Positions 7,836-55,213 of a stretch of DNA of 64,000 nt are shown here, piece after piece. Source of the DNA: Flavobacteriaceae bacterium (GTDB lineage Bacteria > Bacteroidota > Bacteroidia > Flavobacteriales > Flavobacteriaceae); assembly GCA_018646605.1 (NCBI GenBank), contig JABGUL010000039.1, positions 1 through 64,000 on the forward strand, in the 5' to 3' direction. The position numbers were made by a program, and so were the translations under genes. The first letter of the stretch is position 1. Each line of letters begins with the position of its first letter. The notes below the pieces were generated by a model. It saw only the letters and a list, made by a program, of their open reading frames with translations, was not told where the DNA came from and searched no databases.

Positions 7836-8444
7836 ATGGCTTTTGAATTACCCTCACTTTCCTATGCATATGATGCATTAGAACCTAACATTGATTCTCG
7901 TACTATGGAAATCCATCATAGTAAACATCACAATGGTTATACGACTAACCTAAATAACGCAATTGCAGGCACTCCTTTAGCAGATCAATCAATTGAAGAG
8001 ATCCTTAAAGGATTAGATCTAAACAATAAAGCAGTAAGAAACAATGGTGGTGGATATTACAATCACAGACTTTTTTGGAATATTATGTCTCCCAATGGAG
8101 GTGGCCTTCCAACAGGTACTCTTGCAACTGCTATTGATAGCGCATTTGGTTCGTTTGATAATTTTAAAAGTGAATTTGCTAAAGCTGCTGCAACTCAATT
8201 TGGTTCCGGCTGGGCTTGGTTATGTGTTCATGTTGATGGTACTGTAAAAGTTTGCGCAACTGCTAACCAAGACAATCCATTAATGCCAGGTATCGGCTGT
8301 GGGGGAACACCAATATTAGGAATTGATGTTTGGGAGCATGCTTACTATCTTAACTATCAAAACAGACGCCCTGATTATATTCAAGCTTTCTTTAATGTAA
8401 TCGATTGGAATAAAGTAAATGAACTTTTTACCAAAGGAGCTTAA
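7836..8444 (+). CDS. sodA: superoxide dismutase, Mn type
   Basis: 202 residues, the usual length of Fe/Mn superoxide dismutases, which convert superoxide to oxygen and hydrogen peroxide in the cytoplasm. The four metal ligands are visible: His27 (MEIHHSKHH), His77 (YYNHRLFW), Asp164 and His168 (DVWEHAYY). The outer-sphere glutamine lies in TANQDNP (Gln145), as in MnSOD, rather than in the N-terminal position seen in FeSOD. I therefore favour Mn or cambialistic use; metal choice is an inference. No signal peptide. Single-gene unit with its own promoter at 7805-7812, followed by a strong hairpin. Confidence 0.95.
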
Positions 8445-8468
8445 TTCGTTTTGAATTTATTGTAAAAT

Positions 8469-8496
8469 AAAAGGGAGGAATAAATTCCTCCCTTTT
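8469..8496. terminator. hairpin terminator after sodA (copy 1)
   Basis: A perfect 12-bp stem (8469-8480 with 8485-8496), loop TAAA, flanked by A4 and T4, so it can act on either strand. It begins 24 nt after the sodA stop. Confidence 0.7.
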
Positions 8497-8511
8497 GCCC
8501 CAAATCTTACC

Positions 8512-8556
8512 ATGAACTTAACCTACTTATGTTCTGGTGGTATAAAAGTAGTTTAA
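8512..8556 (+). other. 14-codon reading frame in hairpin element copy 1 (coding status unknown)
   Basis: ATG at 8512 starts MNLTYLCSGGIKVV and stops with TAA at 8554-8556. Copy 2 has a frame of identical length starting with the same nine residues. There is no evidence that it is translated. See the findings. Confidence 0.25.
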
Positions 8557-8639
8557 CCCACCAATCAAGGTTAGTTTAATCGTTAAAATGATTTTTTATC
8601 AGTTAAAGTGTTTGGAGTATTTAAAAAGTCTTTTAAAAT

Positions 8640-8667
8640 AAAAAGGAGGAATAAATTCCTCCTTTTT
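8640..8667. terminator. hairpin terminator (copy 2), facing the PurF-like gene
   Basis: A 12-bp stem (8640-8651 with 8656-8667), loop TAAA, with A-runs and T-runs on both sides. It differs from copy 1 only by one compensated base pair. On the minus strand it lies downstream of the gene at 8783-10681 and could terminate that transcript as well. Confidence 0.7.
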
Positions 8668-8682
8668 GCCCCAAATCTTACC

Positions 8683-8727
8683 ATGAACTTAACCTACTTA
8701 TGTTCTGGTGAGTCAAAGATGAAATAA
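8683..8727 (+). other. 14-codon reading frame in hairpin element copy 2 (coding status unknown)
   Basis: ATG at 8683 starts MNLTYLCSGESKMK and stops with TAA at 8725-8727, at the same offset as in copy 1 although the last five codons differ. Coding status is unproven. Confidence 0.25.
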
Positions 8728-8782
8728 CTTACTGTTGGCATGTCATTAATTCGTTAAAGCGCATTAATTATCGATAAAGTGA

Positions 8783-10681
8783 TTAATAGGCTCTATTCTT
8801 ATTTTTGTCTACATAATTAATAAACGCCTGATTCACGACACTACAACCTCCTGGTGTAGGATAATCACCTGTAAAATACCAATCACCTAAATTATCAGGA
8901 CAGGCTTTATGCAATCCGCTAACTTTTTGGAAAATCACTTCTACATCAGCTTTGATACTATCGTTTTTAAGAATTTGAGAGATTTTTTCTGAAATTTGCT
9001 CATCGGTATAAGGGTCATAAATCGCCTTAACATAATTAGGAGGAGCTATTACTTTATCTTCTTTACTCTTTATGCATTTTTCATAAATTGATTGTATGAC
9101 GGTATTGTGGGTTCCATCATCCTTATGTAATGCTAAAGCTGCTCTAAAAGCAATGAACTCCTCTAACCTGGCCATATCTATTCCATAACAATCAGGATAA
9201 CGAATCTGTGGTGCACTTGAAACAACTACTATCTTTTTTGGTCCCAAACGATCTAACATTCTAAGGATACTCTTCTGAAGTGTTGTCCCTCTTACGATAC
9301 TGTCATCTATAATTACGAGATTGTCAGTGTTTTTCACAACACCATAAGTTATATCATAAACATGGGCAACTAAGTCATCTCTTCCGGAGTCTTCCGTTAT
9401 GAATGTTCTTAATTTGGCATCTTTTATTGCAATCTTTTCAATTCGAGGCTTCTGATTTAACATTTTAATAAGAACCGCTTTGTCTAAAGTTCCCTTTTTA
9501 TCCAATTCCCTCTTGAGCTGTTCTCTAACATGGTCTTGAACTGCACCGATCATTCCGTAAAATGAGGTTTCTGCTGTATTCGGGATAAATGAAAAAACAG
9601 TGTTTTCAAGATCCCCACCAATAGCCTTGTGAACCATTGGAAAAAGAGCACATCCCAAATCTTTTCGTTCCTGATATATAGCAGCATCGCTTCCCCTTGA
9701 AAAATAAATGCGTTCAAAAGAACATGCTTTTTTCTCTTTCGCTTCAAGGATACTTGAAATATTGGTTTCACCAGATTTTTTAGTAATGACTGCTTGACCC
9801 GGCTCAAGCTCTTGGATGGTTTCAAAAGGAACATTAAAAACCGTTTGGATAACAGGTCGTTCTGAGGCTACCACTAGAATTTCCTCATCACTGTAGTAAT
9901 AAGCCGGTCTAATGCCATTAGGGTCACGGATGACAAAAGAATCACCATGCCCCAACAATCCTGCCATTGCATATCCTCCATCCCAGTTTTTGGAAGCCTT
10001 GCGAAGTATCTTGGATATATTTAAACGTTCTGCTATCAAAGGTGAAGCCTCAGCCTTGGTAAATCCTTCTCTTTTTAAATTTTTATAAATTTTCGCTACA
10101 GCATCATCCAAAAAATGTCCGATTTTTTCCATTACAGTAACCGTATCTGCTTTTTCCTTTGGATGCTGCCCTAAGTCAACTAAATTTTCAAATAACTCAT
10201 TAACATTTGTCAAATTGAAATTCCCTGCAACAATTAAATTTCTATGCATCCAATTATTTTGTCTTAAGAAAGGATGGACACTTTCAATATTATTCTTCCC
10301 AAAGGTGCCGTAACGAACATGTCCAAGCATTAGTTCGCCAACATAAGGGACCGCTTGTTTTAATCTTTCTGGATGTAAAAGTAAATCTGGATCTAAGTCA
10401 ATTTGTTTTTGAACTCGATCGTTAATAGTTTTAAAAATATCTTGAATAGGTTGCTGTTCTGCAGACCGGACTCGACTAATGTAACGCTGCCCTGGTGACA
10501 TGTCATATTTAATACTTGCAAAACCAGCACCATCTTGACCTCTGTTATGTTGTTTTTCCATTAAAAGGTACATTTTATTGATTCCATAGAGCGCACTACC
10601 ATACTTCTCTTTATAAAATGATAAAGGTTTTTTTAGTTGTATAAGGGCAATTCCACATTCGTGCTTGATCGCGTCGCTCAT
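8783..10681 (-). CDS. amidophosphoribosyltransferase-like protein (long PurF paralogue)
   Basis: 632 residues: an N-terminal class II glutamine amidotransferase domain and a C-terminal phosphoribosyltransferase domain. Cys9 in ECGIALIQL would become the N-terminal nucleophile after removal of an 8-residue propeptide. The PRPP-binding loop is VIIDDSIVRGTT, followed by YPDCYGIDM as in PurF. Odd points: it is more than 100 residues longer than typical PurF, and the glutaminase segment normally reading AHNGNLTN reads AGNFNLTN, changing the His and the oxyanion-hole Gly. This looks like the divergent long form found in Bacteroidota, so its activity as the first purine enzyme is not certain. It lies 15 nt downstream of the PfkB gene and is probably co-transcribed with it. 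Confidence 0.8.
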   Translation of the reverse strand: MSDAIKHECGIALIQLKKPLSFYKEKYGSALYGINKMYLLMEKQHNRGQDGAGFASIKYDMSPGQRYISRVRSAEQQPIQDIFKTINDRVQKQIDLDPDLLLHPERLKQAVPYVGELMLGHVRYGTFGKNNIESVHPFLRQNNWMHRNLIVAGNFNLTNVNELFENLVDLGQHPKEKADTVTVMEKIGHFLDDAVAKIYKNLKREGFTKAEASPLIAERLNISKILRKASKNWDGGYAMAGLLGHGDSFVIRDPNGIRPAYYYSDEEILVVASERPVIQTVFNVPFETIQELEPGQAVITKKSGETNISSILEAKEKKACSFERIYFSRGSDAAIYQERKDLGCALFPMVHKAIGGDLENTVFSFIPNTAETSFYGMIGAVQDHVREQLKRELDKKGTLDKAVLIKMLNQKPRIEKIAIKDAKLRTFITEDSGRDDLVAHVYDITYGVVKNTDNLVIIDDSIVRGTTLQKSILRMLDRLGPKKIVVVSSAPQIRYPDCYGIDMARLEEFIAFRAALALHKDDGTHNTVIQSIYEKCIKSKEDKVIAPPNYVKAIYDPYTDEQISEKISQILKNDSIKADVEVIFQKVSGLHKACPDNLGDWYFTGDYPTPGGCSVVNQAFINYVDKNKNRAY

Positions 10682-53998: not shown

Positions 53999-55213
53999 TT
54001 ATTGCAACATGGCTACTGCCTTTCTTATTCCTGCTTCCAAGCGATCTATTTCTTCAAATGTATTATAAAAAGAAAAAGAAACGCGAACCGTCCCTGGGAT
54101 TTTATAAAAGTCCATAATAGGTTGCGCACAGTGGTGACCCGTTCGAACAGCAATTCCCATTTGATCTAATATACTTCCAATATCATAAGGATGAATGGAT
54201 CCTACGTTAAAGGAAATAACTGCTGTTTTTTCTGTGGCTTCCCCATAAATTTTTAATCCTTCAATCTTTTCCAAAGCAGACGTGGCATACGTTAATAATT
54301 CTGCCTCATAACCCGCTATTGTATCAAACCCTATACCATTCATATAATCCAATGCAGCTCCAAAAGCAATACCACCAGAAATATTGGGTGTTCCCGCTTC
54401 AAACTTATGGGGTAAATCAGCATAGATTGTTTTTTCAAAAGTAACCGTAGCAATCATTTCTCCTCCTCCTTGATAAGGGGGAAGGGTTTGGAGTAGTTCT
54501 GTTTTGCCATATAACATTCCAACGCCTGTAGGTCCACACAATTTATGTGCAGAGGTTACGTAATAATCCACATTCAAAGCTTGAACATCTGCTTTGATAT
54601 GGGGTGATGCCTGAGCACCATCAATTAAGACTTTAGCCCCTTTAGTATGGGCTTTTTCAATAATTTCTTGAATCGGATTGATCGTTCCTAACGCATTGGA
54701 AACATGATTTACAAATACCAATTTAGTATTTGAATTCAGAAGACCGTCAAAAGCTTCCATATCCAAAGTTCCTTCATGCGTCATCGGGATTACTCTTAAA
54801 AGTGCCTCTGTTTTTTCACACAACATTTGCCAAGGCACAATATTAGAATGATGTTCTAAAGCAGAAATTAAAAGTTCGTCTCCTTTTTTAAGAATTGAAG
54901 CATAGCCTGAAGCAATACAATTGATACTTTCAGTAGTTCCTGCTGTAAAAATAATCTCATGGGGATAAGCTGCATTAAAATGTTTTTGAATTGTAGCCCT
55001 AGCATTTTCGTATGCATCCGTTGCCTCTTGACTCAATTTGTGAACTCCCCTATGAATGTTTGCATTATAACGATAATAATAATCAGAAATAACCTCAACA
55101 ACCTGTTTGGGTGTTTGTGAGGTTGCTGCATTATCCAAATAAACAAGAGGTTGCCCATTTACCTCTCGAGATAAAATAGGAAAGTCTTTGCGAAGTTGGT
55201 TTACATCAAACAT
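53999..55213 (-). CDS. sufS: cysteine desulfurase SufS
   Basis: 404 residues, class V PLP aminotransferase fold. PLP Lys in YVTSAHKLCGPTGVG, active-site Cys362 in RTGHHCAQPIMD, and the N-terminal VYLDNAATSQTP. It releases sulfur from cysteine and passes it to SufE. It begins right after sufD with no gap. Confidence 0.96.
   Translation of the reverse strand: MFDVNQLRKDFPILSREVNGQPLVYLDNAATSQTPKQVVEVISDYYYRYNANIHRGVHKLSQEATDAYENARATIQKHFNAAYPHEIIFTAGTTESINCIASGYASILKKGDELLISALEHHSNIVPWQMLCEKTEALLRVIPMTHEGTLDMEAFDGLLNSNTKLVFVNHVSNALGTINPIQEIIEKAHTKGAKVLIDGAQASPHIKADVQALNVDYYVTSAHKLCGPTGVGMLYGKTELLQTLPPYQGGGEMIATVTFEKTIYADLPHKFEAGTPNISGGIAFGAALDYMNGIGFDTIAGYEAELLTYATSALEKIEGLKIYGEATEKTAVISFNVGSIHPYDIGSILDQMGIAVRTGHHCAQPIMDFYKIPGTVRVSFSFYNTFEEIDRLEAGIRKAVAMLQ

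Follow-up and report, generated by a model that had tools for sequence, protein, structure and literature searches.

The 338-bp gap between a sodA-like and a purF-like gene in a Flavobacteriaceae bacterium holds an array of two nearly identical short elements. What are these elements, on which strand do they work, and with what would their product pair? The window, that is, the whole stretch of DNA analysed, comprised 64,000 nucleotides (contig JABGUL010000039.1, positions 1 to 64,000). A first-pass annotation had described the array as a tandem RNA element, read along the plus strand as a hairpin with a 43-nt single-strand tail.

Two tandem copies and their predicted RNA

The copies at 8464–8539 and 8635–8710 mismatched only at G8473/A8644 and C8492/T8663, the partners in one stem pair; on rechecking the positions, the earlier description of 76-nt duplicates with two differences in a single pair was exact. 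The chance that two random differences per 76 nt fall on one stem pair was about 0.5% (13 of 2850 position pairs), complementarity not yet being required. The following 34 nt had diverged, as previously noted, with 12 of 34 positions identical between 8540–8573 and 8711–8744. The similarity said to return at 8581–8610 and 8752–8781 was also found (19/30), and this span covers most of each copy's two-box operator. A genome search confined the element to this one locus. The flanking genes, whose names are presumptive, and the parts of both copies were as follows.

7836–8444, plus strand: ORF, presumed sodA-like Fe/Mn superoxide dismutase; convergent flank, a homologue of which flanks the array in most loci
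8783–10681, minus strand: ORF, presumed purF-like amidophosphoribosyltransferase; co-directional upstream flank, a homologue of which flanks the array in most loci
8636–8709, minus strand: predicted sRNA copy 1 (purF-proximal), ~74 nt; covariance model R1 71.3 bits; two hairpins, fold z = −4.2
8465–8538, minus strand: predicted sRNA copy 2 (sodA-proximal), architecture as in copy 1; R1 71.3 bits; fold z = −4.1
8709–8680, minus strand: 5' hairpin of copy 1, then the single-stranded linker AAGAUUUGGGGC, then the terminator
8669–8699, minus strand: invariant core of copy 1, AAGTAGGTTAAGTTCATGGTAAGATTTGGGG; near-invariant in ~450 units and complementary to predicted target translation starts
8498–8528, minus strand: invariant core of copy 2, near-invariant in ~450 units
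8640–8667, minus strand: intrinsic terminator hairpin and U-tract of copy 1, with an A-U pair at the G-C position of copy 2
8469–8496, minus strand: intrinsic terminator hairpin and U-tract of copy 2; nearly symmetric, 24 nt past the sodA stop

The covariance model R1 describes the sRNA's 5' part. The minus-strand reading was obtained from about 450 distinct units anchored at their right-hand side, and the predicted 5' ends were placed from the spacing to the −7 box. Folding gave an RNA of ~74 nt in which ACCAGAAC AUAAGUAGGUUAA GUUCAUGGU form the 5' hairpin and AAGAUUUGGGGC stays single-stranded, followed by a 12-bp terminator hairpin and a U-rich end. The invariant 5' half consists of the loop AUAAGUAGGUUAA, the arm GUUCAUGGU, and the linker AAGAUUUGGGG.

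Terminator stems were scored sequence by sequence, because a MAFFT alignment of the whole sRNA misaligns terminators of unequal length and makes the RNAalifold terminator meaningless. By this measurement 449 of the 450 distinct units kept an uninterrupted stem of 11–15 bp, with letters differing between units, and stem changes between paralogues of one array were two-sided in 502 cases and one-sided in 127. The compensatory character ascribed to the base-pair change is thereby upheld; the reported sequence observation is confirmed, and the family-wide stem evidence leaves no doubt about it. The copy 2 terminator may also serve sodA.

The 5' hairpin was present in all folds, its variation being limited to one-sided (G-U) changes and shifted bulges. 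No two-sided compensatory change was found in it among the homologous units, because its 3' arm is invariant; its pairing is plausible from the folds rather than proven by covariation. The core was near-invariant at all three codon positions and carried a 1-nt indel between lineages (AAGATTT vs AGATTT); with no codon pattern either, it is therefore not coding. The suspicion that the tail is constrained beyond the needs of a terminator was well founded, as ~31 nt of the 5' half were almost invariant across ~450 units.

Each unit thus combines what the sequence of a sRNA gene would hold, namely a promoter of its own (TAnnTTTG logo), a short RNA, an intrinsic terminator, and non-coding content. 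Judged by these features, the element is a pair of tandem minus-strand genes for a previously undescribed sRNA, whose expression we infer. The RNA nature and the tandem duplication given in the annotation therefore stood, and its strand did not, since the −7 box and operator orientation place the function on the minus strand. What had been called the hairpin is the intrinsic terminator at the sRNA's 3' end, and the supposed single-strand tail is its 5' body, itself partly a hairpin, plus the −7 box. A plus-strand 3'UTR tail or a leader peptide was ruled out by the −7 box orientation, the core indels, and the absent codon pattern.

Promoter, operator, and distribution of the family

The predicted control elements of the two copies were located as follows.

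8714–8721, minus strand: −7 box of copy 1, CATCTTTG (TAnnTTTG type), from the anchored logo
8543–8550, minus strand: −7 box of copy 2, TACTTTTA, from the anchored logo
8748–8779, minus strand: putative operator of copy 1, direct repeat CTTTATCGATAA / CTTTAACGAATT with a 20-bp period; two-box PWM score 13.3
8577–8608, minus strand: putative operator of copy 2, direct repeat CTTTAACTGATA / TTTTAACGATTA with a 20-bp period; two-box PWM score 13.1

Across ~450 units the Bacteroidota −7 box gave the logo T97 A100 n n T100 T100 (T/A) G82, with 1.8–2 bits at the TAnnTTTG positions, and it lay 22–24 nt ahead of the AAGTAGG core in nearly all copies. The operator boxes (TTTnAnCnAA) begin 58 and 38 nt upstream of the −7 box, giving the 20-bp period. 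Both boxes were found in class A copies, in arrays of 1–7, and the two window copies belong to this class. A second class, 79 of the 450 units, always stood last before sodA in shared arrays; its operator boxes were not prominent, and a −33 TTTG was present in 41 of the 79. End copies on the sodA side, of a distinct class (TTTATGG, GGGACGAAAAGGG), with the promoter TTTGTTATTTNNCACAATACCAGTAATTTAG were observed at L012, L013, L026, L030–L032, L152, L158, L165, and others. This promoter resembles the housekeeping −33/−7 type and differs from that of the operator-bearing copies, and the end copy is possibly constitutive.

In the window's own genome the operator motif, at two mismatches or fewer, gave 96 matches against 140 for the control, i.e., no excess over control. 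In sequence the operator may resemble the LytTR consensus (ATCAGTTAAA). Operators of the LytTR family are direct repeats separated by 11–13 bp (PMC6193735), and a 9-bp box plus 11 bp, the 20-bp period seen here, agrees with that spacing. A LytTR-type regulator is compatible with these repeats and is a lead, not more, to the candidate factor. The TAACTGA heptamers, which are contiguous tandem repeats (PMC4679880), were rejected as unlike the sRNA operator.

DNA homologues were found in 245 of 301 sampled Flavobacteriaceae genomes (~80%), in 1–7 tandem copies, which bears out the earlier impression that other flavobacteria share the tail. The genera include Maribacter, Zobellia, Muricauda/Flagellimonas, Arenibacter, Eudoraea, Robiginitalea, Cellulophaga, Kordia, Croceivirga, and Candidatus Arcticimaribacter, and one large genus (g129) carried the divergent form TAGTAGGTTAAGTTTATGGTAGATTTGGGG. 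An array was not detected in 56 of the 301 family genomes (~19%), complete genomes among them (e.g., genera g133, g176, and g121). At 164 loci, sodA and purF were both present in 124, one of them in 37, and neither in 3. Among the loci listed, the element was co-oriented with purF and opposed to sodA, and its spacing from sodA was variable.

With R1, neither the order's other families nor the remainder of the phylum yielded a convincing homologue. Two matches outside the family were dismissed as chance-like: G644 (31 bits) has neither a TAnnTTTG box nor a terminator, and G759 (28 bits) lies inside an apparently continuous coding stretch. The element is not a member of Flavo-1 or of another Rfam family; the Rfam 15 covariance models gave 0 matches in the window at gathering score, and a lax search gave sub-threshold chance matches without Flavo-1. 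In the literature, including a full-text look for strings of the sRNA sequence, no description was found. By these comparisons the sRNA family appears new and specific to Flavobacteriaceae.

A peptide mRNA and other candidate partners

The composite pattern CCCCAAATCT-N(2-32)-ATGAA, applied to 61 genomes, returned the arrays and a recurrent near-full-length complementary site, e.g., CCCCAAATCTACCATAAACTTAAAAACTTATGAA; its reversed control gave 3 matches over all 61 genomes. In many genera this site precedes one small ORF, e.g., MNIATNLPEQPTNDESKFKQTLKENLQFLKSLVYLTKKIFML. At the loci inspected its neighbours were genes that we take to encode a CoA-transferase subunit on one side and, convergent to the ORF, a peptide-type ABC transporter ATPase on the other; in relatives of the window's genome this place is the scoB / oligopeptide ABC transporter junction. 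The peptide is ~42 aa long (35–44 aa) and basic, with a conserved C-terminus (LTKK[IVL]FML) and an amphipathic C-terminal segment. Its maximum 18-residue Kyte-Doolittle mean was ~0.8, with no clear transmembrane helix, and it had no match in Pfam or NCBIfam. The peptide profile A3 was present in 132 of the 301 family genomes, 130 of which were also sRNA-positive (hypergeometric 1.5e-13, phylogeny not corrected).

The profile derives from ORFs that were first spotted by complementarity, and one pairing site lies within the coding sequence; for this reason only a 5'UTR test on loci found by their protein is independent. At 39 such loci the 5'UTR duplexes had a median of −36 kcal/mol and a median z of −6.2 against dinucleotide shuffles, all with z < −2, and the reversed-sRNA control had a median of −18 kcal/mol; these energies leave aside intramolecular folding and RNA-binding proteins. 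In most cases the AUG fell inside the best duplex, which extended from about −30 to +3. Each peptide leader had on average 3.1 perfectly complementary stretches of 8 nt or more, compared with 0.31 for shuffled sequences. About three complementary stretches were observed per leader, some far upstream of the start and one inside the coding sequence, where the codons of the N-terminal N-L-P motif form part of a second pairing site; the Leu codon was CTA in 45 of 47 cases, compared with 70 of 274 elsewhere in these ORFs. Segments predicted to pair include GAUUUGGGG on the sRNA side and CCCCAAAUC on the side of the peptide leader.

Applied to 49 peptide promoters, the operator matrix, trained on sRNA promoters only, reached a median of 16.1 (shuffled sequences, 5.7 ± 2.5), with its maximum at spacing 20 and ~28 nt upstream of a −7-like box. 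Detection by a matrix trained on the sRNA argues that sRNA and peptide gene very probably have one regulator in common.

In the window's own genome the peptide profile had no match. The window sRNA is of the AAGATTT type, and such genomes mostly have shorter, divergent peptide relatives with shorter complementarity where there is any (e.g., L539, L544, L547). L539 also carries a tandem pair of LTKK-FM family peptide genes (601 and 1015) whose leaders show partial complementarity to the sRNA. Searches of the own genome with the 22-mer complement at 3 mismatches and with TTAACCTACTTA returned the array only, and complete CCCCAAATC or loop complements close to starts were not found there. Among 66 ORF starts of the window, duplex prediction gave no convincing target (median −16 kcal/mol). 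The best value, −26 kcal/mol, belonged to the gene at 55213 (minus strand), by eye presumably cysteine-desulfurase-like, which starts MFDVNQLRKDFPILSREVNGQPLVY and is a weak candidate.

CCCCAAATC is the 9-nt complement of the linker; a search for it near the ORF starts of other genomes gave several leaders of secreted proteins or lipoproteins. CCCCAAATC(T) or a near variant was observed close to the start codon in the secreted or lipoprotein leaders L401, L286, L306, L143, L044, and L010. The L401 leader holds CCCCAAATCCCAAATCTTAACACCTACTTATG near the AUG plus ACCTACTTATG, complementary to the sRNA loop. Three genes for small Zn-ribbon-like proteins (CKCC motif, ~77–88 aa), at L458 (~1476), L463 (~1460), and L418 (~1500), have CCCCAAATCT immediately ahead of the AUG, and upstream they carry TTTCATCGA repeats that look like the operator. 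These three are probable further members of the sRNA-peptide regulon.

Proposed mechanism, rival readings, and significance

From homology, architecture, synteny, complementarity, and the shared operator, all read in the DNA, we infer expression, repression, and the identity of a factor, and consider it probable that the arrays encode tandem trans-acting sRNAs of ~74 nt which have their own operator-controlled promoters and pair with translation starts, the peptide mRNA being the best-supported partner in a dose-set incoherent feed-forward loop. One transcription factor, through the operator with 20-bp period, would activate both the peptide mRNA and the 1–7 sRNA copies. The 5' half of the sRNA would then pair with the peptide mRNA across the AUG (about −30 to +3) and at sites upstream and in the 5' coding sequence. 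Pairing would block translation of the peptide, repression and not activation being assumed, and the copy number of the array (1–7) would set the sRNA dose. The peptide would appear only transiently or above a threshold, because the co-activated sRNA covers the start codon and blocks translation.

A real possibility, falling just short of likely, is that the sRNA mainly represses many secreted, lipoprotein, or SusC-like mRNAs at their start codons and that the peptide mRNA is one of many. FopS of Bacteroides thetaiotaomicron would be the model: paralogous sRNAs with 14 dispersed copies in Bacteroidaceae, targeting SusC mRNAs and reported as deposited in Rfam (PMC11697453). The linker complement near the AUG of the six lipoprotein or secreted leaders and CCCCAAATCT just ahead of the Zn-ribbon starts speak for it. 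So do 68 matches of CCCCAAATC against 23 of the reversed pattern in G001. The reversed pattern is, however, a poor control for codon bias, and CCCCAAATC showed no enrichment in G000 (17 vs 13) and G533 (17 vs 14). Extended complementarity conserved across genera was established for the peptide alone. The flavobacterial sRNA resembles FopS in being multicopy, in its 5' seed and terminator, and in its predicted start-codon pairing, which is a similar way of working and not membership. It differs in standing in tandem at one syntenic locus, in having no Rfam 15 match, and in a peptide-mRNA partner with the same operator; homology to FopS was sought through Rfam, without a match, and through R1, which had no convincing homologue outside Flavobacteriaceae. 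The reverse arrangement, in which the co-regulated peptide mRNA would be a sponge that titrates the sRNA off its real targets, seems unlikely to us. The roughly three complementary stretches per leader, including those far upstream and within the coding sequence, and the operator common to both genes would suit a sponge, but the strongest site lies nearly always over the AUG, and the peptide is conserved as a protein, including a C-terminus (LTKKIFML) outside the pairing regions.

Type I toxin-antitoxin systems with a trans-encoded antitoxin, e.g., TisB/IstR, also use antisense pairing in the leader of a small-peptide mRNA, and the pairing predicted here with the peptide mRNA leader is of that kind. 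It is improbable in our judgement that the peptide acts on membranes as a toxin for which the array supplies the RNA antitoxin. The small size and basic character of the peptide, its amphipathic C-terminal segment, an antisense RNA over its translation start, and near-exclusive co-occurrence would fit such a pair; the peptide is, however, only moderately hydrophobic, and arrays occur in genomes without detectable peptide. The candidate antitoxin is also multicopy, unlike that of TisB/IstR, and one operator activating both toxin and antitoxin would be unusual. Exceedingly improbable, finally, is a plus-strand 3' element of sodA, made of hairpin and conserved tail, or a DNA element. The nearly symmetric hairpin, 24 nt past the sodA stop, could terminate sodA, yet up to 7 repeats occur, each having its own −7 box and operator on the minus strand, and the distance to sodA varies. 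The peptide gene, which is transcribed into a complement of the minus-strand product, also has its operator and −7 box in the same orientation.

Two other sRNA groups invite comparison. LhrC1–5 of Listeria monocytogenes are multicopy sRNAs under one two-component system that use redundant pairing sites to block translation of their targets (PMC4132741). The flavobacterial tandem copies likewise each carry the same operator; phylum, sequence, and target are different, the redundant sites lie here in the target leader, and homology was not indicated by Rfam. In Flavobacterium psychrophilum, Rfp18 and other Rfp sRNAs came from RNA-seq, and Rfp18 is described as having at least 3 stem-loops and regulating metalloproteases (PMC9723704). 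By its described stem-loops Rfp18 would differ from the present sRNA with its two hairpins. The array sRNA could correspond to another, unnamed Rfp RNA of F. psychrophilum.

On the sequences sampled, the whole family Flavobacteriaceae appears to share an as yet unstudied RNA-peptide regulatory circuit. It is possible, if rather doubtful, that this is a chromosomally fixed, family-wide module in which the array tunes the antisense dose against a co-activated amphipathic peptide through leader and coding-sequence sites, as a switch resembling type I toxin-antitoxin systems or acting in peptide signalling.

In oceans, soils, and fish, few bacteria are as abundant as the Flavobacteriaceae. To our knowledge few of their sRNAs are known, and our literature search found no published sRNA-target pair of such kind for the family. 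A sRNA family in ~80% of the sampled genomes now has a predicted promoter, operator, partner gene, and precise pairing positions, and is thus directly testable. With it come a peptide family not described before (C-terminus LTKK[IVL]FML) and a regulator that sRNA and peptide gene likely share. These bacteria mostly do without Shine-Dalgarno sequences, and the system could address how antisense pairing at a start codon works where they are not used.
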